A DNA stretch of 64,000 nucleotides from Chimaeribacter arupi (lineage in GTDB: Bacteria; Pseudomonadota; Gammaproteobacteria; Enterobacterales; Enterobacteriaceae). The first letter of the stretch is position 1, and each line of letters begins with the position of its first letter. Location: positions 1 through 64,000 of the forward strand of contig NZ_PJZI01000023.1 of assembly GCF_002858805.1 (NCBI RefSeq). Reading direction: 5' to 3'. This document shows, piece by piece, positions 1-9,239 of the stretch. The notes beneath the pieces were generated by a model. That model was not told the DNA's origin. It worked only from the letters and a program-made list of their open reading frames with translations, and made no database searches. The position numbers and the translations under genes were made by a program.

Positions 1-151
1 TAAAGCCAAACACGGAATGCGTTCGGTGGATGAGGGTGTCACGGCCATTAATGAAGGCTGCACGGTATTAGGATTCGGTTTTATGGATAAAGAGGAATTA
101 GGCCAGAAACTGGTGGAAGCCTGGCGTAAAAAATTCGGCCAGACACCATGA
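1..151 (+). CDS. Glycine-rich SFCGS family protein, C-terminal end (partial)
   Basis: An open frame runs from the window edge to a TGA at 149-151 and gives about 49 residues ending GQTP. It contains GFGFMDKEELGQKLVEAW, typical of the end of the small SFCGS family (the EF_0830/AHA_3911 type, from memory). That family lies directly before DUF4312, DUF4311 and DUF4310 genes in other bacteria, which is the order here. The stop overlaps the next start by ATGA, so the two are translationally coupled. The family's namesake cysteine motif would lie upstream of the window and cannot be checked. A role as a IIB-like soluble component of a transporter is inference. Confidence 0.72.
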   Translation, partial: KAKHGMRSVDEGVTAINEGCTVLGFGFMDKEELGQKLVEAWRKKFGQTP

Positions 152-444
152 AACAGATCTATACCACCACGGTTCAGGTACAGGGAAAAGGCCCGACCAA
201 AGCCGCCGCCTTTTCCGCGGCCTTAAGCCAGGTGCAGCAGGCAGTAATGAACTCCACGGAGACGGTGTTATTACGTATTGAGCCGCAGGATCTCCGGGTA
301 ATAACGGCAGAGGAAACCATCACGCGGGAAAAATTCCTGTTCTTCTTTCTGCCGCGTGAAAAGCGCCAGTATGCCGTCACGCTGGATATTACGGTCAACG
401 TTACCGCCATTAATACCGGGCAGGTGACGTTCGCCACCCCTTAA
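148..444 (+). CDS. DUF4312 family protein
   Basis: This 98-residue protein starts at an ATG overlapping the previous stop by 4 bases. It has no signal peptide and no clear membrane span. The only very hydrophobic patch is FLFFFLP near residue 66, followed by a beta-rich stretch (YAVTLDITVNVTAIN). Length, sequence style and position between SFCGS and DUF4311 genes identify DUF4312 (EF_0831/AHA_3912 type). The function is unknown; a small cytosolic partner of the two following membrane proteins is inferred from invariable gene order. It is part of one operon running to about 4952 or beyond. Confidence 0.78.
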   Translation: MKQIYTTTVQVQGKGPTKAAAFSAALSQVQQAVMNSTETVLLRIEPQDLRVITAEETITREKFLFFFLPREKRQYAVTLDITVNVTAINTGQVTFATP

Positions 445-472
445 ACACGGGAACGAGAGATAAGGAGTCCTG

Positions 473-1249
473 ATGTTTTTTATTATTCTGCTTAAATCGC
501 TGATTATCGGCGGGCTGGTGGGGGTCGGCGTGGGTGCCGGCGCGGCGCGGATGTTCCATGCGCCGACGGTGCAGGGCATGGGGGCCTTCCGTACGCTCGG
601 CGAGCTGAACGCCTGCGAGGGCGATCCGGCATCCCACTTCTCCTTCGGCCTCGGCTTCTTCTTCAACGCCTGGGCCTCCTCCGTGGCGGCCGGGGCCTTC
701 ACCCAGGATGTTGACCACCGCATCATCCCCAACTGGGGGGCGGCGGCGATCATGATGAAAAACCGCAACCTGGCGGAAACCCTGCACGACCCGCGCAAAA
801 TGGCGCTGGCCTGTGGGCTTATCGGCATGGTGGTGGTGGCGTTTCTCAATACTACCGCCTCGGCGGTGCCGGCGGCGCTTCAGGTCACGGCGGTGAAAGT
901 GCTGGTGCCGGCCGCCAACCTGCTGGTGAACACCGTGATGCCGGTGATCTTCTGGCTGGCGGCGATTGATGCGGGCCGCCGCTCCGGCTTCTGGGGCACG
1001 GTGTTCGGCGGGCTGGCGCAGCTTATCATGGGGAACGCCGTACCGGGGTTGGTGCTCGGCATCCTGATCGGCAAAGGCGTGGAAGAGAGCGGCTGGAACC
1101 GCGTCACCAAAATCATGATGGCGGTGATTGTGCTGCTGTTCGTGCTGAGCGGCTTCTTCCGCGGCTTTGATATGAAGCTGCTGCAATCCTTCACCCTCGG
1201 CGTGCCCGGCTGGCTCGAGCACATCCATAACACCCTGAGCGGGAAATAA
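473..1249 (+). CDS. DUF4311 family membrane protein (putative transporter subunit)
   Basis: This 258-residue, strongly hydrophobic protein follows a good ribosome site (AAGGAG, 7 bases before the ATG). Probable membrane segments are near residues 3-25 (glycine-rich LIIGGLVGVGVGAG), 55-75, 102-125, 138-165, 173-205 and 212-235. The family is DUF4311 (EF_0832/AHA_3913 type), always paired with DUF4310. Together they resemble, in size and layout, the two membrane subunits of a mannose-type or galactitol-type PTS permease, but I see no clear homology to a named IIC or IID. The neighbouring amidohydrolase, DgaE and DgaF genes suggest uptake of an amino-sugar-acid-like compound. Confidence 0.82.
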   Translation: MFFIILLKSLIIGGLVGVGVGAGAARMFHAPTVQGMGAFRTLGELNACEGDPASHFSFGLGFFFNAWASSVAAGAFTQDVDHRIIPNWGAAAIMMKNRNLAETLHDPRKMALACGLIGMVVVAFLNTTASAVPAALQVTAVKVLVPAANLLVNTVMPVIFWLAAIDAGRRSGFWGTVFGGLAQLIMGNAVPGLVLGILIGKGVEESGWNRVTKIMMAVIVLLFVLSGFFRGFDMKLLQSFTLGVPGWLEHIHNTLSGK

Positions 1250-1251
1250 TC

Positions 1252-1926
1252 ATGACGACCCTTATCACCGAAAAAGCAGCTCCGCAGGAGAAAGCCGGGT
1301 TCTGGTACGCCGACTGGTCTTTCCCGATCTTTGTCGGCTTGCTCTCCTCCGGGGTGTTTGCCGGTACCCACATGTACTACCTCTACGGCATCGGCGCGTT
1401 TAACGAAGTGGCATTTGTGTCGATGCTGCGCGCCGGGATGGACACCGGCGTCTACGGCGCGGTGGCGGCTTTCGGGGCGAGCTTCCTGTTCGCCCGCATT
1501 ATTGAAGGCTCGCTGGTCGGCGTGCTGGACATCGGCGGCGCGGTGCAGACCGGCGTCGGGCTGGGCATCCCGGCGCTGCTGCTCGGCGCGGGCATCGTCT
1601 TCCCGGTGGAGAACTTTATCGCTTCGCTGATCACCGGGCTGGTGGCCGGGCTGGCGATTGGCTACCTGATTATCCTGGCGCGCAAATTCACCATCAACCA
1701 GAGTAACTCCACCTACGGCGCGGATGTGATGATGGGCGCGGGCAACACCTCCGGGCGTTTCCTCGGGCCGCTGATTATCCTGTCAGCGATCACCGCCTCG
1801 ATCCCGATCGGCATCGGGTCGCTGCTGGGCGCGCTGCTGTTCTACCTCTGGCAGAAGCCGATCACCGGCGGGGCGATCCTCGGCGCGATGATCTTTGGCG
1901 CGCTGTTCCCGGTGACGCTCTCCTGA
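1252..1926 (+). CDS. DUF4310 family membrane protein (putative transporter subunit)
   Basis: This 224-residue integral membrane protein begins 2 bases after the DUF4311 stop. A soluble N-terminus of about 20 residues is followed by glycine and alanine-rich spans near residues 25-45, 60-80, 85-110, 120-145, 165-190 and 195-220. The DUF4310 family (EF_0833/AHA_3914 type) is the constant partner of DUF4311. Its stop overlaps the amidohydrolase start (TGATG), so transport and catabolism are coupled. The transported substrate and energy source are unknown; PTS-like function is inferred from context only. Confidence 0.82.
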   Translation: MTTLITEKAAPQEKAGFWYADWSFPIFVGLLSSGVFAGTHMYYLYGIGAFNEVAFVSMLRAGMDTGVYGAVAAFGASFLFARIIEGSLVGVLDIGGAVQTGVGLGIPALLLGAGIVFPVENFIASLITGLVAGLAIGYLIILARKFTINQSNSTYGADVMMGAGNTSGRFLGPLIILSAITASIPIGIGSLLGALLFYLWQKPITGGAILGAMIFGALFPVTLS

Positions 1927-3071
1927 TGGCGGCCGCGATGAAAGATCTGATCCTGCGCCGGGCGCGGCTGGCAGACGGCAGCGTCATCGATCTGGCGGTG
2001 CAGAACGGCCGGATCGCCGCGCTGGGGACGTTGCCGGAGATGATGGCGGCGGAAAACACCGTGGATCTGGCGGGCGGGGTGTACCTGAGCGCCGGCTGGA
2101 TCGACAGCCATGTGCACTGCTACCCGGCTTCGCCGATCTACCACGACGAGCCGGATCGCGTCGGCATCGACGGCGGCGTCACCACCGTGGTGGATGCAGG
2201 CAGCACCGGCGCGGATCAGGTGGGGGATTTCCACCGCCTGACCCGCACGGCGCGCACACAGGTGCTGGCGCTGCTGAACATCGCCCGCACCGGCATCGTG
2301 ACGCAGAACGAGCTGGCGGACATGGCGCAGATCGACGGCGCGGCGGTGAAACAGGCGATCGGCGACTACCCCGGCTTTATCATCGGGCTGAAAGCGCGCA
2401 TGAGCAGCAGTGTGGTGGGGGAGAACGGCCTGCGGCCGCTGATCCGCGCCAAGCAGATCCAGCATGAGAATGGCGATGTGCCGCTGATGGTGCACATCGG
2501 CAACGATCCGCCTGATCTGGACGGCATCGCCGATCTGCTGACCGCGGGTGACATCATCACCCACTGCTACAACGGCAAACCGAACCGCATCCTGACGCTG
2601 GAAGGCGCGCTGCGCGGCGCAGTGCGTAAGGCGCTGGATCGCGGTGTGCGGCTGGATGTCGGCCACGGCAGCGCCAGTTTCAGCTTTGCGGTGGCGCGGC
2701 AGGCGATTGCGCTCGGCATTCTGCCGCACACCATCAGTTCCGACATTTACTGCCGCAACCGCCTGGACGGGCCGGTACACAGCCTGGCGGCGGTGATGTC
2801 CAAATTTTTGGCGCTCGGCATGACGCTGCCGCAGGTGATTGATTGCGTCACGGTAAACGCCGCCCAGTCGCTGAAACTCACCGGGCGCGGGCGGCTGGCG
2901 GTGGGGGAAACGGCTGACCTCACGCTGTTTGCCCTCAACGACACGCCGCAGATCTACGCCGATGCTGACGGGGCCGCCATGAATGCGCCGCAGCAGCTGG
3001 TGCCGCTGGCGGCGGTGGTCGCCGGGGCGCTCTATCCAACCCAAGAAGGGAATGTCTATCATGTCTTCTGA
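1926..3071 (+). CDS. Amidohydrolase/deacetylase family metallohydrolase
   Basis: A 381-residue enzyme of the amidohydrolase superfamily (EF_0837/AHA_3915 type). Visible metal-site features are the HVH motif near residue 62 (GWIDSHVHCYPAS), a candidate carboxylated lysine in GLKARMSS near residue 156, and histidines in MVHIGNDPPD (about 190), THCYNG (about 213) and DVGHGSASF (about 246). SDIYCRNRLDGP follows as the probable catalytic-aspartate strand. It probably hydrolyses an amide, N-acyl or cyclic bond in the incoming compound before the DgaE and DgaF steps, though the exact substrate is unknown. The start overlaps the DUF4310 stop, and the end overlaps the next gene by 11 bases. Confidence 0.85.
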   Translation: MAAAMKDLILRRARLADGSVIDLAVQNGRIAALGTLPEMMAAENTVDLAGGVYLSAGWIDSHVHCYPASPIYHDEPDRVGIDGGVTTVVDAGSTGADQVGDFHRLTRTARTQVLALLNIARTGIVTQNELADMAQIDGAAVKQAIGDYPGFIIGLKARMSSSVVGENGLRPLIRAKQIQHENGDVPLMVHIGNDPPDLDGIADLLTAGDIITHCYNGKPNRILTLEGALRGAVRKALDRGVRLDVGHGSASFSFAVARQAIALGILPHTISSDIYCRNRLDGPVHSLAAVMSKFLALGMTLPQVIDCVTVNAAQSLKLTGRGRLAVGETADLTLFALNDTPQIYADADGAAMNAPQQLVPLAAVVAGALYPTQEGNVYHVF

Positions 3072-4206
3072 TGCGCTGTCTGATAACAACACCGTTTCCC
3101 CCCACGAAAAATACCGGCTGAAACAGGTGATTAACGCCTCCGGCCGCATGACGATCCTGGGCGTCTCGACGCCGGAGCCGGCAGTGGCCGCCGCGGTGGA
3201 GTATGGCCTCGGCCACTTTTTCGAGATGAAGGATCTGGTGCTGAAAACCGGTGCCTATATTGCCGGGCTGCTGAACGTGGAGGATGCGGTGATCGTCTCC
3301 TGCGCCTCGGCCGGGATCGCGCAGTCGGTGGCGGCGGTGATCGTCAAAGAGAGCGATCATTTGCTGGTGAACCTGCACAGTGCCGCCCATCAGGAGCCGG
3401 ACGAAATTGTGCTGCCGAAAGGGCATAACGTGAATTACGGCGCGCCGGTCGGCACCATGGTGGCGCTGGGCGGCGGAAAGGTGGTCGAAGCCGGCTACGC
3501 CAATGAGTGCTCGGCGGCGCAACTGGCCGCCGCCATTACCCCGCGCACCGCAGCGCTGCTCTACATCAAATCGCACCACTCGGTACAGAAAAGTATGCTG
3601 ACGGTCGCAGAGGCAGCAGAGGTGGCACACCGCCACCAGTTGCCGCTGATTGTGGATGCGGCCGCAGAAGAGGATCTCACCTGTTATTACCAGATGGGTG
3701 CGGATCTGGTGATCTACAGCGGCGCGAAAGCGCTGGAAGGCCCGTCGAGCGGGCTGGTCATCGGGCGCGCAACTTATGTGGCCTGGGTGCGCCGCCAATC
3801 GGAAGGCATCGGCCGGGCGATGAAAGTCGGCAAAGAAGGCATCCTCGGGCTGACCGAAGCGATTGAGCGTTACGTCCACCGCGTGCCGGTGAGCGGGCAG
3901 CAACTGGTGGAGAAAATGACGCCGTTTATTGAGCGCCTCAACACCCTGCCGGGCGTGACGGCACGCGTGGTATGGGACAGCGCCGGGCGCGATATCGCCC
4001 GTACCGAGATCGCCTTTGATGAGGCAGCGCTGGGGCTGCGCACCGGCGAGATTGTGCAGCGGCTGAAAACCGGGAAGATCGCCATCTATTTCCGCGGTTA
4101 CCGCGCCAATGAGGGCAAGATCGAGGTCGATGTGCGCAGCGTCACCCCGGAGCAACTCACGACCCTTTACACCTGCCTTGCCACCCTGCTGGAGAAACGC
4201 CCGTGA
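3061..4206 (+). CDS. dgaE: DgaE family PLP-dependent ammonia lyase
   Basis: A 381-residue PLP enzyme of the SelA-like fold. The motif YSGAKALEGPSSG carries the probable PLP lysine at about residue 223. The named relative DgaE converts D-glucosaminate-6-phosphate to 2-keto-3-deoxy-6-phosphogluconate plus ammonia in Salmonella. I chose the ATG at 3061 because AAGAAGGG lies about 10 bases upstream; in-frame starts at 3052 and 2983 have poorer spacing or non-conserved residues. The gene overlaps the amidohydrolase by 11 bases and the aldolase by 4 (GTGA). The true substrate may differ from glucosaminate because the transporter here is not the Dga PTS. Confidence 0.85.
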   Translation: MSSDALSDNNTVSPHEKYRLKQVINASGRMTILGVSTPEPAVAAAVEYGLGHFFEMKDLVLKTGAYIAGLLNVEDAVIVSCASAGIAQSVAAVIVKESDHLLVNLHSAAHQEPDEIVLPKGHNVNYGAPVGTMVALGGGKVVEAGYANECSAAQLAAAITPRTAALLYIKSHHSVQKSMLTVAEAAEVAHRHQLPLIVDAAAEEDLTCYYQMGADLVIYSGAKALEGPSSGLVIGRATYVAWVRRQSEGIGRAMKVGKEGILGLTEAIERYVHRVPVSGQQLVEKMTPFIERLNTLPGVTARVVWDSAGRDIARTEIAFDEAALGLRTGEIVQRLKTGKIAIYFRGYRANEGKIEVDVRSVTPEQLTTLYTCLATLLEKRP

Positions 4207-4952
4207 AACCGACCTCATTAACCCCAAATTATTACCGTGACCGTGTCTGCCTCAATGTGCTGGCGGGCAGCAAAGCCAATGCGCAGGCGGTGTATGACGC
4301 GGCAGAGGGGCATGTGCTGGTGGGCGTGCTCTCGAAAAATTACCCGGATGTGGCGTCAGCCGTGGCGGATATGCGTGGCTACGCGGCGCTGATTAATAAC
4401 GCGGTATCGGTCGGGCTGGGGGCGGGCGATCCGCGCCAGTCGGTGATGGTCGGGCAGATTGCGGCCGCGCTGCAACCGCAGCATGTGAACCAGGTCTTCA
4501 GCGGTGTGGGCAGCAGCCGGGCGCTGCTGGGCCAGCCTGACACGGTGGTCAATGGGCTGATTTCGCCTACCGGCCGCGTGGGCTGGGTGACGATTTCCAC
4601 CGGGCCGCTGAGCAGCGGGCAACCGGCAGCGACAGTGCCGGTAGAAACGGCGATTGCGATGCTGAAAGAGATGGGCGGCAGCGCGGTGAAATACTTCCCG
4701 ATGGGCGGGCTGGCCACGCGGGAGGAGTTCGCTGCCGTGGCGCGCGCCTGTGCGGCGCAGGATTTCTGGCTGGAACCTACCGGCGGCATCGATCTGGAGA
4801 ACTTCACGCCGATCATGGCGATCGCGCTGGAGGCCGGGGTCAGCAAAATCATCCCGCATGTCTACAGTTCTATTATCGACAGCCAGAGCGGTGACACCCG
4901 GCCGGCGGCGGTCGCGGCCCTGCTGGCACAATTGCGCGCACTGGTGGGCTAA
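4203..4952 (+). CDS. dgaF: DgaF-like KDGP aldolase
   Basis: A 249-residue class I aldolase (EF_0839/AHA_3917 type) expected to cleave 2-keto-3-deoxy-6-phosphogluconate into pyruvate and glyceraldehyde-3-phosphate. The segment GSAVKYFPMGGL near residue 160 holds the likely Schiff-base lysine, and LEPTGGIDLENF near 195 is a phosphate-binding region. Translation starts at a GTG that overlaps the DgaE stop (GTGA). It sits directly after dgaE, as in the Salmonella dga operon. It supplies the entry to central metabolism for this cluster. Confidence 0.87.
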   Translation: MKPTSLTPNYYRDRVCLNVLAGSKANAQAVYDAAEGHVLVGVLSKNYPDVASAVADMRGYAALINNAVSVGLGAGDPRQSVMVGQIAAALQPQHVNQVFSGVGSSRALLGQPDTVVNGLISPTGRVGWVTISTGPLSSGQPAATVPVETAIAMLKEMGGSAVKYFPMGGLATREEFAAVARACAAQDFWLEPTGGIDLENFTPIMAIALEAGVSKIIPHVYSSIIDSQSGDTRPAAVAALLAQLRALVG

Positions 4953-4976
4953 GCCTTCTTACACAGGAGAAACGCC

Positions 4977-6143
4977 GTGAAAACACGCACCGCCCTTTGT
5001 CTGGTACTGGCGATGGTCAGCGCGCCGCTGCACGCAGAGACCGCGCGCTTCGCTTATGTCGGCACCTATAACCCCAACGGCGAAGGCGTCTACCGCTTCA
5101 CCGTCAATGCCACCGACGGCCGCCTCAGTGAGCGAGCACTGGTCAGCCGCGTCAGTAACCCGGCGCAACTGGTGGCGAACGCCGCCGGCACGCTGCTGTT
5201 TGTGGGCAGCGAGGTCGCGGATTTCAACGGCGGGCAGCAGGGCGGGCTGAGTGCTTACCGCATCAACCCACAGGACGGCAGTTTAACGCTGCTCAACCAG
5301 GTGATGTCCGCCGGGCAGGGGCCGGTCTGGCTGTCGTTGACACCGGATGAAAAATTCCTGCTGGTGGCGAACTATATCAGCGGCAGCGTCGCCAGCTTCC
5401 CGGTGGCGGGTGACGGGAAACTTGGCGCGGCGGTGTCGGTGCAGCAGCAACAGGGCGAGCCGGGTGCCGCCAGGCCGGCCGCCGCAGTGCCGGGGAGTTT
5501 CGCCATCAGCGACCATAACGGGCCGCACGCCCATATGATCGAGAGCGATCCCAGCGGGCGTTTCGCCTTCTCCACCGATCTGGGGCTGGACAGGATCTAC
5601 CAGTGGCGGCGCGATCCTGAAACCGGCGCGCTGACGCCGAACGATCCGCCGTTCATCCCGGCCGCCTCGGCCGGTGCCGGGCCGCGCCATCTGGTGTTCC
5701 ACCCGTCGGGCGACACGCTGTTTGTGATTGCGGAAGAGGCCTCAGTGGTGACCAGCTACCGCCTCAACCGCGATACCGGCACGCTGACGCCGCTGAACAG
5801 CCTTTCATCGCTGCCGCCGGCCTACCAGGGCACCAGTTTTGCCGCCGGGTTGCTGCTGGGGCGTGACGGCAAAAACCTCTATGTCGCCAACCGCCTGCAC
5901 AACAGCATCGCCCAGATCGCCGTCACGCCCGAAGGCGGGATGCGCTGGGTCGCGGAGGTGTGGACGCGCGGCGATTACCCCCGCAGCCTGACGCTCGACC
6001 CGGCCGGGAAAACGCTTTATGTCATGAATCAGAAAAGTGACAACATAACCCGCTTCCAGGTCGATCCGGCGCATGGCACACTGACTTTCGCCGACGAGTA
6101 CACCCCGGTCGGCAGCCCGTCCCAGCTGATTATGGTGCCCTGA
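4977..6143 (+). CDS. Secreted lactonase family beta-propeller protein
   Basis: A 388-residue protein with a clear Sec signal peptide (KTRTALCLVLAMVSAPLHA, cleavage before ETARFAY), so the mature part is periplasmic. The remainder has repeated blades such as GTYNPNGEGVYRF, NGPHAHM and GPRHLVFHPSGDTLFV, typical of the 6-phosphogluconolactonase-like (PF10282) seven-bladed propeller. It starts at a GTG after ACAGGAG. A periplasmic location means a phosphorylated lactone is unlikely to be its substrate. Opening a sugar or aminosugar lactone before uptake is the natural inference from its place in the operon. It lies 24 bases after dgaF. Confidence 0.82.
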   Translation: MKTRTALCLVLAMVSAPLHAETARFAYVGTYNPNGEGVYRFTVNATDGRLSERALVSRVSNPAQLVANAAGTLLFVGSEVADFNGGQQGGLSAYRINPQDGSLTLLNQVMSAGQGPVWLSLTPDEKFLLVANYISGSVASFPVAGDGKLGAAVSVQQQQGEPGAARPAAAVPGSFAISDHNGPHAHMIESDPSGRFAFSTDLGLDRIYQWRRDPETGALTPNDPPFIPAASAGAGPRHLVFHPSGDTLFVIAEEASVVTSYRLNRDTGTLTPLNSLSSLPPAYQGTSFAAGLLLGRDGKNLYVANRLHNSIAQIAVTPEGGMRWVAEVWTRGDYPRSLTLDPAGKTLYVMNQKSDNITRFQVDPAHGTLTFADEYTPVGSPSQLIMVP

Positions 6144-6195
6144 GGCAGCGATGCTGCCCTCCGGTGCGAACAGTTATCCCAACCCTGGAAGGATT

Positions 6196-8112
6196 ATGGT
6201 GCGGTTTCCCTATCAACGTCTGGCCAATCTGTTTGATGCCTTGCAGGATGAGATCCTGCCGCAGGAGGAGCTGGCGAAACGCTTTGACGTCTCCACCCGC
6301 ACCGTGCGGGCGGACATCACGGCACTTAACGAGATCCTGATCCGCTATGGCGCGCAGTTTGTGCACACGCGCGGCAGCGGCTACCAGCTCCGGGTAGAGG
6401 ATGCGGTTCGCTTCAGTGCGCTGCGCCAGCCTGCGGCCGCCGCGCCGCAAATCCCGCGGACGGCGGCTGACCGGGCGACCTGCCTGCTGGTGCGGTTTCT
6501 CACCTCGCCGTTTTCGCTGAAACTGGAAGACCTGGCGGATGAGTGGTACGTGAGCCGCGGCACACTGCAAAGTGACATGGCGGAGGTGCGGGAGTATCTC
6601 AGCCGTTATCCGCTGACGATTGAAACCAAACCGCGCTACGGCATGAAACTGTTCGGCAGCGAAGTGGCGATCCGCGCCTGCCTGACCGATCTGCTGTTCC
6701 AGCGGCAGGATGAGCACAGCGCCGGGTTGCTGCATTCACCGGCGGTGCTGGCAGTGGCGCAGATGCCGGCGCTGGCCGCCGCGCTGCATCAGGGCGTGTC
6801 ACAGGCGGGGATCCGGTTGACGGACGAGGGCGAGCACTATCTGGCGCTCTACTGCGCGGTGGCGCTCCGGCGCATTTGTGACGGCTACCCGCTCTCCGAT
6901 TTCCAGGCCGACGAAGGGGATGAGGCGGTGCGGCAGGTCTCCTCAGCGCTGGCGGCCCAGTTGCGCCAGTGGGCAGGGAAGGAGATTGCCCCGGCGGAGG
7001 AGGCGTACCTGCGGGTAAACATCGCTGCGCGGCACGTCCAGGCGGTGCAGCCTACGGAGATCAATGCCGACGATGAGGAGGCGCTGGTGGATTACCTGCT
7101 CTCTTACATCAATGCGCACTATAACTACGATTTGCAGGGTGACGAGCAGTTGCGCGCCGACCTGCTGACGCACATCAAAACCATGATCACCCGGGTGAAA
7201 TACCAGATAGCCATCCCGAACCCACTGCTGGCGAACATCAAACAGCACTACCCGATGGCCTATGACGTCACGCTGGCGGCCCTGTCAAGCTGGGGAAAAT
7301 ATACCCCCTACAGCCTGAGCGAAAACGAGATCGGGTTTCTGGTGCTGCACATCGGCGTCGGGCTGGAGCGCCACTACAACATCGGCTACCAGCGCCACCC
7401 GCAGGTGCTGCTGGTGTGCGACACCGGCAATTCCACCATCCGCATGATCCAGGCGCAGGTCAGCCGCAAATACCCGCAGCTGGAGATCACCCGCATCATC
7501 ACGCTGCGCGACTATGAGCAGCTCAGCCAGATTGACGAGGATTTTGTGATCTCCACGGCGCGGCTGGCGGAGCGCAACAAACCGGTGGTGGTGATGTCAC
7601 CGTTCCCGACCGAATTCCAATTGGAACAGCTCGGCAAGCTGGTGCTGGTGGATCGCACCCGCCCCTATATGCTGGAGAAATTTTTTGATGCCGGGCATTT
7701 CCTGATCCTCGACCAGCCGCTGAGCCAGGAGGAACTGTTCCGCCGGGTGTGCGGCCAACTGGAGCTGGAAGGGGTGGTGGACGGCGATTTTTATGCCTCG
7801 GTCACGGAGCGGGAGGCGATTGTCTCTACCATGCTGGGCGAGGGCATCGCGCTGCCGCACGCGCTGGGGTTACAGGCGAAAAAAACCGTGGTGGTGACGG
7901 TGCTCTGCCCGCCGGGCATCGCCTGGGGGCAAGGGGAGACGGCGCAGGTGATTTTCCTGCTGGCGATAAGCAAAGCCGATTATGAGGAAGCGATGGCGAT
8001 CTATGACCTGTTCGTCACCTTTGTGCGTGAGCGCTCGGCCAGCCGGTTGCTCGCCAGCCGCGATTTTGCCAGCTTTAAAGCGATTGCCGGCGAAAGCCTG
8101 AGCCGGATTTAA
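6196..8112 (+). CDS. PRD-domain transcriptional regulator (HTH-PRD-PRD-IIB-IIA)
   Basis: A 638-residue regulator of the MtlR/LicR type, often labelled a BglG-family antiterminator. Domains in order are an N-terminal HTH (ELAKRFDVSTRTVRADITAL, about 20-45), a second winged/Mga-like region, PRD1 (about 195-290), PRD2 (about 295-395, with LLTHIKTMI and LVLHIGVGLERHY histidines), a IIB-like domain with VLLVCDTGNST (about 403) and a C-terminal IIA-like domain with GEGIALPHA (about 550). DNA binding by the HTH fits activation better than RNA antitermination. In PRD1 the usual helix histidine appears to be tyrosine (LALYCAVALRRI). The start at 6196 begins MVRFPYQRLANLF, as I recall for relatives; an in-frame ATG at 6151 would add 15 residues. 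It probably senses substrate through phosphorylation and controls this operon. Confidence 0.85.
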   Translation: MVRFPYQRLANLFDALQDEILPQEELAKRFDVSTRTVRADITALNEILIRYGAQFVHTRGSGYQLRVEDAVRFSALRQPAAAAPQIPRTAADRATCLLVRFLTSPFSLKLEDLADEWYVSRGTLQSDMAEVREYLSRYPLTIETKPRYGMKLFGSEVAIRACLTDLLFQRQDEHSAGLLHSPAVLAVAQMPALAAALHQGVSQAGIRLTDEGEHYLALYCAVALRRICDGYPLSDFQADEGDEAVRQVSSALAAQLRQWAGKEIAPAEEAYLRVNIAARHVQAVQPTEINADDEEALVDYLLSYINAHYNYDLQGDEQLRADLLTHIKTMITRVKYQIAIPNPLLANIKQHYPMAYDVTLAALSSWGKYTPYSLSENEIGFLVLHIGVGLERHYNIGYQRHPQVLLVCDTGNSTIRMIQAQVSRKYPQLEITRIITLRDYEQLSQIDEDFVISTARLAERNKPVVVMSPFPTEFQLEQLGKLVLVDRTRPYMLEKFFDAGHFLILDQPLSQEELFRRVCGQLELEGVVDGDFYASVTEREAIVSTMLGEGIALPHALGLQAKKTVVVTVLCPPGIAWGQGETAQVIFLLAISKADYEEAMAIYDLFVTFVRERSASRLLASRDFASFKAIAGESLSRI

Positions 8113-8115
8113 CCG

Positions 8116-8388
8116 CTACTCTTCGTCGAAGCCGGAGTTAAACAGCTCCACCACCGCGTTCAGCGCATTGACCTCATCGGGGCCGGTGGCCTCGATCTCA
8201 ATGCGCTGGCCTTTGGGCGAGTCGAGCATCAGCAGGGCGATCACGCTGCTGGCCTCCGCCTCCATGCCTGCGTCGTTGCGCAGCATCACTTCGGCGTCAA
8301 AGCTCTGCACCAGCTCAAACAGTTTCATCGCCGGCCGGGCGTGCATGCCGAGCCGGTTTTTGATCTCCACCGTGTGTTTCACCGTCAT
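8116..8388 (-). CDS. npr: Phosphocarrier protein NPr (nitrogen PTS HPr)
   Basis: A 90-residue HPr-like protein. His16 in [13 protein letters not shown] is the phosphorylation site, and the rest ([19 protein letters not shown]) matches the HPr fold. In the nitrogen PTS, NPr carries phosphate from EI-Ntr (PtsP) to EIIA-Ntr (PtsN). Its start overlaps the end of rapZ by 4 bases, and it is the last gene of the rpoN-hpf-ptsN-rapZ-npr unit. It converges with the PRD regulator with only 3 bases between their stop codons, so the accessory operon is inserted right at this edge. Confidence 0.95.
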
Positions 8389-9239
8389 AATTTACGTTTT
8401 TCCAGCGTGCGATGGCGGGATTGCACGTTCTTCCCGCGGGAACGGAAATAATCCGCCAGTTGCTCCGCCACATACACCGACCGGTGCTTGCCGCCGGTAC
8501 AGCCGATGGCGACGGTGAGGTAACTGCGGTTATTGGTTTCGAGCATCGGCAGCCACTGTTCAAGGTAGCTGCGCGTCTGGTAAATGAAGTTATGCACTTC
8601 TGTATGCCGGTCAAGGAAGGCGGCGACCGGGCGGTCCAGGCCGGTCATCGGGCGCAGTTTCGGGTCCCAATGCGGGTTGGGCAGGAAACGTACGTCAAAC
8701 ACATAGTCGGCATCAATCGGGATGCCGTGCTTGAAGCCAAAGGATTCGAACACCATCGTCAGCTCGCGCTCGCGTTTGCCCAGCAGGCGGGTACGCAGCA
8801 TTTCGGCCAGCTCATGCACTGACATCTCCGAGGTGTCGATCAGCAGGTCGGCGCGTGAGCGCAGCGGCTCCAGCAGCTCGTTCTCCTCATCAATGGCGCT
8901 CTCCAGCGACAGGTTGCGGGCGGAGAGGGGATGCAGGCGACGGGTATCGCTGTAACGGCGGATCAGGGTGTTGCGGTCCGCATCAAGGAACAGCAGTTGC
9001 GGTGAAAAGCTCTCCGGCAGCTGGGACATGGCGTGCTCAAAGATTTCCGGTGTTTCCGGCATGTTGCGCACGTCAATGCTGACGGCGGCGGAGGTGTTGC
9101 GTTCCACCAGCGCGTGCGCCAACTGCGGCAGCAGAACCACCGGCAGGTTATCGACGCAGTAAAAGCCCATATCTTCAAGCGCACGCAAGGCAACAGATTT
9201 ACCCGAACCGGAACGGCCGCTGACTATCATCAGCACCAT
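8385..9239 (-). CDS. rapZ: RNase adapter protein RapZ
   Basis: A 284-residue protein with a Walker A motif at residues 8-15 ([16 protein letters not shown]) and the conserved C-terminal domain ([16 protein letters not shown]). RapZ binds the small RNA GlmZ and glucosamine-6-phosphate and directs RNase E to cleave GlmZ, which controls glmS expression. The length equals the E. coli protein. It lies between ptsN and npr, the standard order. Confidence 0.97.

Follow-up and report, generated by a model that had tools for sequence, protein, structure and literature searches.

The first genes of a 64,000-nucleotide stretch of Chimaeribacter arupi DNA (contig NZ_PJZI01000023.1, positions 1 to 64,000, forward strand; this whole stretch is referred to below as the window) encode SFCGS, DUF4312, DUF4311 and DUF4310, four proteins that already belong to Pfam/NCBIfam families of unknown function and stand directly before a set of catabolic genes. 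The question raised by this locus is whether these proteins form an uptake system and, if so, whether it is coupled to the phosphotransferase system (PTS), as a first-pass annotation had considered from their two soluble and two membrane parts. They probably constitute a transporter together with a small stand-alone PRD protein encoded upstream. Our best explanation of the whole, put forward tentatively, is a PTS-coupled permease for an acylated aldonate that works without recognizable IIA, IIB or IIC parts and with a PRD/SFCGS relay.

Layout and conservation of the cassette

Judged by its layout, the region from 1 to 8112 of the window is a single operon with the following genes:

2-151, forward strand: 3' end of the SFCGS gene (EF_0830 family), 49 C-terminal codons and the stop, from open reading frame (ORF) and family search
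148-444, forward strand: DUF4312 protein (EF_0831), 98 amino acids, without membrane segment
473-1249, forward strand: DUF4311 multi-span membrane protein (EF_0832), 258 amino acids
1252-1926, forward strand: DUF4310 multi-span membrane protein (EF_0833), 224 amino acids
1926-3071, forward strand: amidohydrolase/deacetylase (EF_0837 family), probable N-deacetylase
3061-4206, forward strand: DgaE-family ammonia-lyase dependent on pyridoxal phosphate (PLP)
4203-4952, forward strand: aldolase of the DgaF type for 2-keto-3-deoxygluconate (KDG) 6-phosphate
4977-6143, forward strand: lactonase with a signal-peptide-like N terminus by eye
6151-8112, forward strand: operon regulator with helix-turn-helix (HTH), PRD and EIIA_2 domains and, by eye, an EIIB-like stretch

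The family matches of the four permease proteins are beyond chance. DUF4312, DUF4311 and DUF4310 exceeded the cut-offs of TIGR03578 (E = 8e-37, 125.5 bits against 89.65), TIGR03580 (E = 1.5e-150, 499.8 bits against 301.1) and TIGR03579 (E = 8.8e-119, 395 bits against 215.45), respectively. The part of SFCGS inside the window reached 80.2 of the 141.1 bits needed for TIGR03577 and matched PF14272 at E = 1.9e-19; the 27.3-bit cut-off of the latter was exceeded both by this part (69.6) and by the part on contig C47 (165.4). The SFCGS and DUF4312 reading frames share 4 bases (ATGA), and the last base of DUF4310 is also the first of the deacetylase frame, for which an in-frame ATG at 1938 is an alternative start. 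A simple hydropathy count, which gives a lower bound, found five membrane segments in each of DUF4311 and DUF4310 and none in SFCGS or DUF4312.

The four coupled genes and the overlaps reported by the first-pass annotation are thus real, whereas the unit is larger than it had described. Base 1 of the window is the start of contig C38 and cuts the SFCGS gene, whose 5' part lies together with the small stand-alone PRD gene at the end of contig C47 (the two contigs overlap by 77 bases), and the operon continues to 8112. The annotation had also seen no PTS phosphorylation motif. No PTS family could be found in the permease parts within the window; the invariant Cys56 of SFCGS is not visible there because the gene is cut at the contig start, and it lies on the C47 part. 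The sequence of positions 1-77 recurs at the end of a third contig, C48, where an unrelated reading frame resembling a glycosyltransferase precedes it; this is probably an assembly artefact. At its other end the operon stops 3 bases from convergent genes that look npr-like (HPr family) and rapZ-like by eye (8116-9239); these neighbours are probably incidental.

Gene order was compared in 85 loci with long flanks, namely the best 80 of 469 relatives (genome contigs, Enterobacterales by their record titles) and five plasmid-collection records. The order PRD-SFCGS-DUF4312-DUF4311-DUF4310-deacetylase-DgaE-DgaF-lactonase-regulator was kept in 55 of them, and a version without the lactonase was found in 27. 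Only three loci were irregular: that of Enterococcus faecalis has the regulator first and extra genes, L079 reaches a contig end before any regulator, and in Aeromonas caviae KAM479 (L039 8926-10268) an internal deletion fuses DUF4310 (at about codon 49) to DgaF (at about codon 101), leaving a decayed copy. The nine-gene order was also present in both loci of family f27, presumably Pasteurellaceae, that were read at length. That the four genes are so strictly tied to a catabolic operon, in 82 of 85 loci, and that two of their products are multi-span proteins support the transport role that had been proposed.

DUF4310 was matched in 42 of 295 sampled genomes of the order (one match spanned only 31 residues) and DUF4311 in 12 of 398 sampled genomes of the phylum, all within the window's own family. 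A distant blastn search with the DUF4311-DUF4310-deacetylase DNA gave no match in 5,426 Escherichia coli genomes, no copy of the cassette was found in E. coli K-12, and a viral scan found no relative. The DUF4310 and DUF4311 relatives were 68-99% identical to the window proteins, and SFCGS, DUF4311 and DUF4310 of E. faecalis were 66-76% identical; Bacillota and Fusobacteriota each contributed a single record, from E. faecalis and Cetobacterium, respectively. A possible DUF4311 match was noticed in the E. coli control genome, and one of two similar weak matches elsewhere (L133) was dismissed as it falls in a gene taken for djlA. Several cassette-bearing 'plasmid' records (L036, L038 and L039) are chromosome-sized or resemble chromosome fragments.

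Probable substrate and phosphorylated intermediates

As read from their families, the lactonase, deacetylase, DgaE and DgaF appear to lead from an N-acyl-aminoaldonate to pyruvate. The enzymes indicate an N-acylated 2-amino aldonate, and the Amadori-type substrates suggested by the first-pass annotation found no support. The lactonase, which is present in 55 of the 85 loci, is probably periplasmic, given the N terminus seen by eye. The most likely substrate appears to be N-acetyl-D-glucosaminate, the acid of N-acetylglucosamine (GlcNAc acid), because of the enzyme set, the lack of clear ong matches in Aeromonas and the AHA loci in model names. The names of the NCBIfam models include loci AHA_3911-3917, and we take AHA to stand for Aeromonas hydrophila. 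For two Aeromonas strains, only distant OngB/OngC matches, or none, are reported (PMC11653859). The ong route for GlcNAc acid (PMC9537276) shares with the cassette the proposed substrate and products up to KDG-6-phosphate, whereas it uses an SSS symporter, unphosphorylated intermediates, another deacetylase/deaminase and phosphorylation by KdgK as its last step.

The Salmonella dga system (the DgaABCD PTS with DgaE and DgaF) resembles the cassette in having DgaE/DgaF-type enzymes that act on glucosaminate-6-phosphate. DgaABCD consists of mannose-family PTS parts, whereas none is recognizable in the cassette, which has an extra deacetylase and often a lactonase. According to PMC9529869, uptake and phosphorylation are coupled in Salmonella, DgaE acts on the PTS-made glucosaminate-6-phosphate, and the phosphate of a hand-docked substrate lies near Arg301, Arg332 and Arg346. 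The window DgaE aligns with the solved Salmonella-type enzyme over nearly its full length, and its Arg314, Arg345 and Arg359 correspond to these three residues (columns read off the alignment); all three were kept in 85 of 85 distinct rows, sequences covering <75% of the query having been left out. DgaE scored 575.8 bits against TIGR01437, the DgaE family (cut-off 385.3), and the aldolase 369.5 bits against NF047796, the DgaF model (cut-off 300); against NF047797, the stricter equivalog for the Salmonella-type DgaE, the window enzyme reached 363.1 of 600 bits.

In 82 of the 85 loci the operon is too tightly packed to hold a kinase gene. The largest intergenic gaps in the 80 genome-contig loci were 436 bases between lactonase and regulator, 314 between DgaF and lactonase and, where the lactonase is lacking, 260 between DgaF and regulator. 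With two PfkB-kinase queries, a kinase ORF was detected in one of the 85 loci, that of E. faecalis. Since the phosphate site of DgaE is kept, yet a kinase gene is absent inside the operon, phosphorylation probably accompanies uptake; that the permease itself delivers the phosphorylated product is about as likely as not.

Earlier work touches the E. faecalis cassette: EF0839 was suspected of a role in amino-sugar metabolism and had a possible fitness effect (PMC7701990), an EF0839 promoter fragment was recovered in a urine screen (PMC2912369), and PMC11135667 names EF0838. A literature search by DUF4310/4311/4312, SFCGS, EF and AHA locus names and product names found no permease study, subscription papers being mostly outside its coverage. 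As far as this search shows, the permease is unstudied, as the first-pass annotation held, although its proteins had already been placed in named families.

Possible distant relatives and the yhf operon

Cys56 of SFCGS was found in 88 of 88 aligned rows and a matching cysteine in all 10 YhfU proteins. Profile comparison (hhalign) of SFCGS with YhfU gave E = 8e-4 over 93 of 121 columns, with reversed controls at 0.06 and 0.16; the value was 7e-4 with more sequences and 0.02 with query and template swapped. Ten of the 23 SFCGS sequences weakly matched DUF2620 (PF10941, gathering score 25), with E = 0.0037 at best and short of family membership, and 2 of 10 YhfU proteins matched the SFCGS family (best E = 0.029). 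LacAB_rpiB was matched by 22 of 23 SFCGS (best E = 0.001) and 6 of 10 YhfU proteins (best E = 0.045), the one SFCGS member tabulated reaching 12.4 bits against the gathering score of 24.7 for PF02502 (RpiB/LacAB). When searched against the PDB, the SFCGS profile had E. coli RpiB as the better of two matches (E = 0.33), with Cys56 aligned to Cys66, and the YhfU profile had 2ppw, RpiB-like by our own reading, as the first of seven (E = 0.11); two ribose/galactose isomerases ranked fourth and fifth there, after two unrelated chains. A joint SFCGS and YhfU profile, which presupposes their kinship, matched RpiB at E = 2.1e-4, centred on the shared cysteine, and the next control stood at 0.025. At its N terminus SFCGS has Asp-Arg at the place of Asp-His in RpiB; we take Cys66 and Asp-His of RpiB to have catalytic roles.

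Single E-values are weak, and it is the reciprocity of the matches and the shared cysteine that make SFCGS appear distantly related to YhfU and RpiB/LacAB, with the same cysteine; the profile evidence for this is weak to moderate. Probably SFCGS and YhfU share the fold and the cysteine position of these isomerases; they differ in being shorter and below the family cut-off, and the pathway as read needs no isomerase step. The PRD protein also resembles a protein of the yhf operon: YhfY matched TIGR03582, the EF_0829 PRD model, at E = 1.6e-6 (28.4 bits, below the cut-off of 69.35) and the cassette PRD profile at E = 3.1e-6, and His50, present in 92 of 92 cassette rows, was found in all three aligned YhfY proteins. 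For DUF4312 no credible relative was found, RecA and haemoglobin matches being taken for chance.

Among the membrane parts, DUF4310 and YhfT were each other's top match in 42 comparisons (E = 2.1e-4 and 3.6e-3; runners-up 0.025 and 0.036). The control set was small, 13 named proteins, several PTS EIICs among them, and 6 clusters, each also reversed. DUF4310 maps to about residues 219-313 of YhfT, the beginning of its second half, which points weakly to a relation between DUF4310 and this half. At E up to 1, Pfam did not list PF10797 (YhfT, gathering score 26.1) for DUF4310 or DUF4311. An equation of DUF4311 with the N-terminal half of YhfT, suggested by eye from FH...FGL, was rejected: the pair ranked fifth or worse in local modes and took first place in global mode alone (E = 0.078), and no kinship is claimed. 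AlphaFold2 gave mean predicted local distance difference test (pLDDT) values of 42.4 for DUF4310 and 43.5 for DUF4311 with 62 and 68 close homologues, too low for the models to show the membrane fold.

Taken by its parts, the cassette perhaps parallels, as a distant relation, the yhf operon of E. coli, which is itself unexplained. Both combine a small PRD protein, a soluble cysteine protein, a multi-span protein and a PLP enzyme. The yhf operon (YhfT, PF10797; YhfU, PF10941; YhfY PRD) differs in having a single membrane protein instead of two, no DUF4312, enzymes of the PTE family, the Metalloenzyme superfamily and the alanine-racemase-like type, and an HTH/YhfZ_C regulator. YhfU and a small PRD protein were present in the operon of 11 of 12 YhfT loci examined at length, and YhfU adjoined YhfT in two of nine further YhfT matches. 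No kinase is annotated in the E. coli yhf operon, and Pfam shows no PTS domain in its regulator YhfZ. The yhf PRD is therefore unlikely to serve the regulator, and we regard this as the strongest reason to think that the small PRD acts together with the permease. Among the titles covered by a literature search on yhf gene names, none dealt with YhfT or YhfU function in E. coli.

One genome (G004, 96% complete) carries a lone YhfT gene about 840 bases 3' of a GH20 chitobiase gene, which is itself preceded by an OprD porin gene (L190 999-7355). The place beside a chitobiase is suggestive of amino-sugar transport, although the neighbourhood may be chance. Among the nearest relatives of this YhfT (62-63%) is one from a yhf operon that is nearly complete; near the G004 gene six decayed yhf genes were sought and none was found, apart from one chance match (E = 0.96). 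A weak YhfT match in G154 was discarded, being located in a gene that looks RseP-like by eye.

A possible PTS-coupled permease and its alternatives

In the mechanism that we favour, PRD-SFCGS-DUF4312-DUF4311-DUF4310 would be an uptake system for an N-acylated 2-amino-2-deoxy-aldonate, whose lactone would be opened by the periplasmic lactonase. DUF4311 and DUF4310 would jointly form the membrane channel, and the substrate would enter the cell as its 6-phosphate, from which the deacetylase, DgaE and DgaF would then yield acetate, ammonia, pyruvate and glyceraldehyde-3-phosphate. The phosphoryl group would come from phosphoenolpyruvate (PEP) via enzyme I (EI) and HPr and pass through a non-canonical relay, with the stand-alone PRD (His50) in the IIA role and the RpiB-like SFCGS (Cys56) in the IIB role. 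The E. coli yhf operon, with the YhfY PRD, YhfU and YhfT, would be a second branch of the same architecture. Taken alone, a PRD/SFCGS phosphoryl relay, for which we infer a route from the PRD histidine to the SFCGS cysteine, is doubtful; the PRD domain has so far been known as a regulator module.

A PTS link is suggested by gene neighbourhood. On two Bartonella plasmids, near identical and so counted as one event, an HPr-EI fusion gene lies directly 3' of the cassette (L037 8047-10062; L186 15405-17420), and in HY406 both LHARP and GGATSH, which we take for the HPr and EI motifs, are intact. The 49 annotated features of the Bartonella plasmid NZ_CP104895, all of which were read, include no sugar kinase and, besides the regulator and HPr-EI, no PTS gene. 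A Caballeronia relative (55% identical) lies directly 5' of ptsG, so that the four-part permease there has a position like that of a IIBC permease. The hints of PTS coupling converge because the DgaE phosphate site, the absence of an in-operon kinase, the HPr-EI gene and the PRD histidine point the same way. Together with the SFCGS cysteine, they lend indirect support to the earlier suggestion of a PTS branch, while homology does not support it. In the favoured reading the cassette would act like a PTS permease, yet by sequence it falls outside that class: no homology of a membrane part to EIIC/EIID was detected, and no IIA or IIB family was found in the four proteins, the PRD with invariant His50 and SFCGS with its invariant cysteine being present. 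Mannose-type permeases (IIC and IID) likewise have two membrane and two soluble parts, but no sequence relation of ManY, ManZ, AgaC or AgaD to cassette proteins was detected.

A number of observations weigh against this mechanism. No IIA, IIB, IIC or IID was found in the window permease proteins by Pfam (E up to 1) or NCBIfam (E up to 0.001); full-length SFCGS matched no PTS family, and profile comparisons of permease parts with PTS proteins gave nothing above noise. The PTS IIB signature is C(x)5(S/T), and SFCGS lacks it around its invariant cysteine. In hhalign, ManY, ManZ, AgaC, AgaD, UlaA, SgcC, SrlA, SrlE and a cellobiose IIC stayed within the control range against DUF4310 and DUF4311. 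The distant kinships are also fragile: nitrogenase (E = 0.55) came close behind RpiB in the PDB search with the SFCGS profile, and RpiB was missed there when a single SFCGS sequence served as the query. The SFCGS and RpiB profiles matched at E = 0.0038, yet the PTS protein UlaC reached 0.0048 over 21 columns, and DUF1685, a spurious and unrelated family, reached 8.7e-4. On the membrane side, raising the YhfT rows from 13 to 21 weakened its match with DUF4310 to E = 1.6e-3 and 0.016, still in first place; DUF4311 could not be linked to YhfT, and DUF4311 and GntP, taken as unrelated, reached E = 0.008. His104 of the PRD, invariant in 92 of 92 cassette rows, is not conserved in the three aligned YhfY proteins. 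Genome G004 has a YhfT-family protein with no YhfU found in the genome and no PRD nearby, so the membrane part can occur where the cysteine protein is absent. The Bartonella regulator has PRD and EIIA_2, and the HPr-EI fusion could thus serve the regulator alone. Finally, the absence of kinases refers to two PfkB queries at the 85 loci, other families and the rest of the genomes not having been searched, and the E. faecalis cassette (L036 11548-18263) contains a KDG-kinase-like gene and a cellobiose-type EIIC, as well as a MupG-like protein and DgaF only as a partial ORF.

Several of these points would be expected if DUF4311 and DUF4310 formed a secondary, ion-coupled permease, with SFCGS and DUF4312 binding or gating, a kinase encoded elsewhere, and the PRD and HPr-EI purely regulatory. 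We regard this as a possible reading: PTS homology was not detected, the G004 YhfT homologue stands without YhfU after the OprD and chitobiase genes, a sugar kinase gene lies inside the E. faecalis cassette, and the ong route (PMC9537276) pairs a symporter of the SSS family with a kinase. It fits less well with the 82 loci that have no kinase gene inside the operon, the invariant phosphate site of DgaE, and a PRD that stays near YhfU and YhfT in yhf loci although YhfZ has no PTS domain in Pfam. It is improbable that SFCGS is instead an RpiB-like isomerase or epimerase of a sugar acid at the membrane, with DUF4311 and DUF4310 as membrane enzyme or scaffold. The RpiB-like match, the cysteine at the place of Cys66 and the Asp-Arg facing Asp-His would suit such an enzyme, but the operon would be left without its own transporter in 82 regular loci, and both membrane proteins are highly conserved. 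Even less probable is that the regulator lends its EIIA_2 and EIIB-like domains to phosphorylate permease or substrate. The window regulator does have EIIA_2 (E = 8.3e-18), with candidate His and Cys phospho-sites conserved over 84 rows, and the Bartonella regulator has EIIA_2 as well, whereas the E. faecalis regulator shows none at E up to 0.01 despite its closely similar permease proteins, and E. coli YhfZ has no such domain.

For the PTS-coupled permease, what is new here is that the cassette can be tied to the yhf operon, that SFCGS shows an RpiB-like match which includes its cysteine, and that several hints of PTS coupling converge on a permease of unfamiliar parts. Its strongest form, a class of PEP-driven group translocators in which a PRD is the histidine phosphocarrier, an RpiB-fold protein the cysteine phosphodonor and the membrane protein has no detectable EIIC kinship, is rather unlikely, as is its extension over Enterobacterales, Pasteurellaceae, Bartonella and Enterococcus and, as yhf, over E. 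coli K-12, Vibrio and Cetobacterium. If the PTS-coupled reading is right, it would mean a new class of PTS permease with new A and B parts, and a first function for seven families (SFCGS, DUF4310, DUF4311, DUF4312, YhfT, DUF2620 and the EF_0829/YhfY PRD). It would also give the yhf operon of E. coli K-12, so far unexplained, a testable role, and bacteria such as Aeromonas a phosphorylated route for oxidised chitin sugars.

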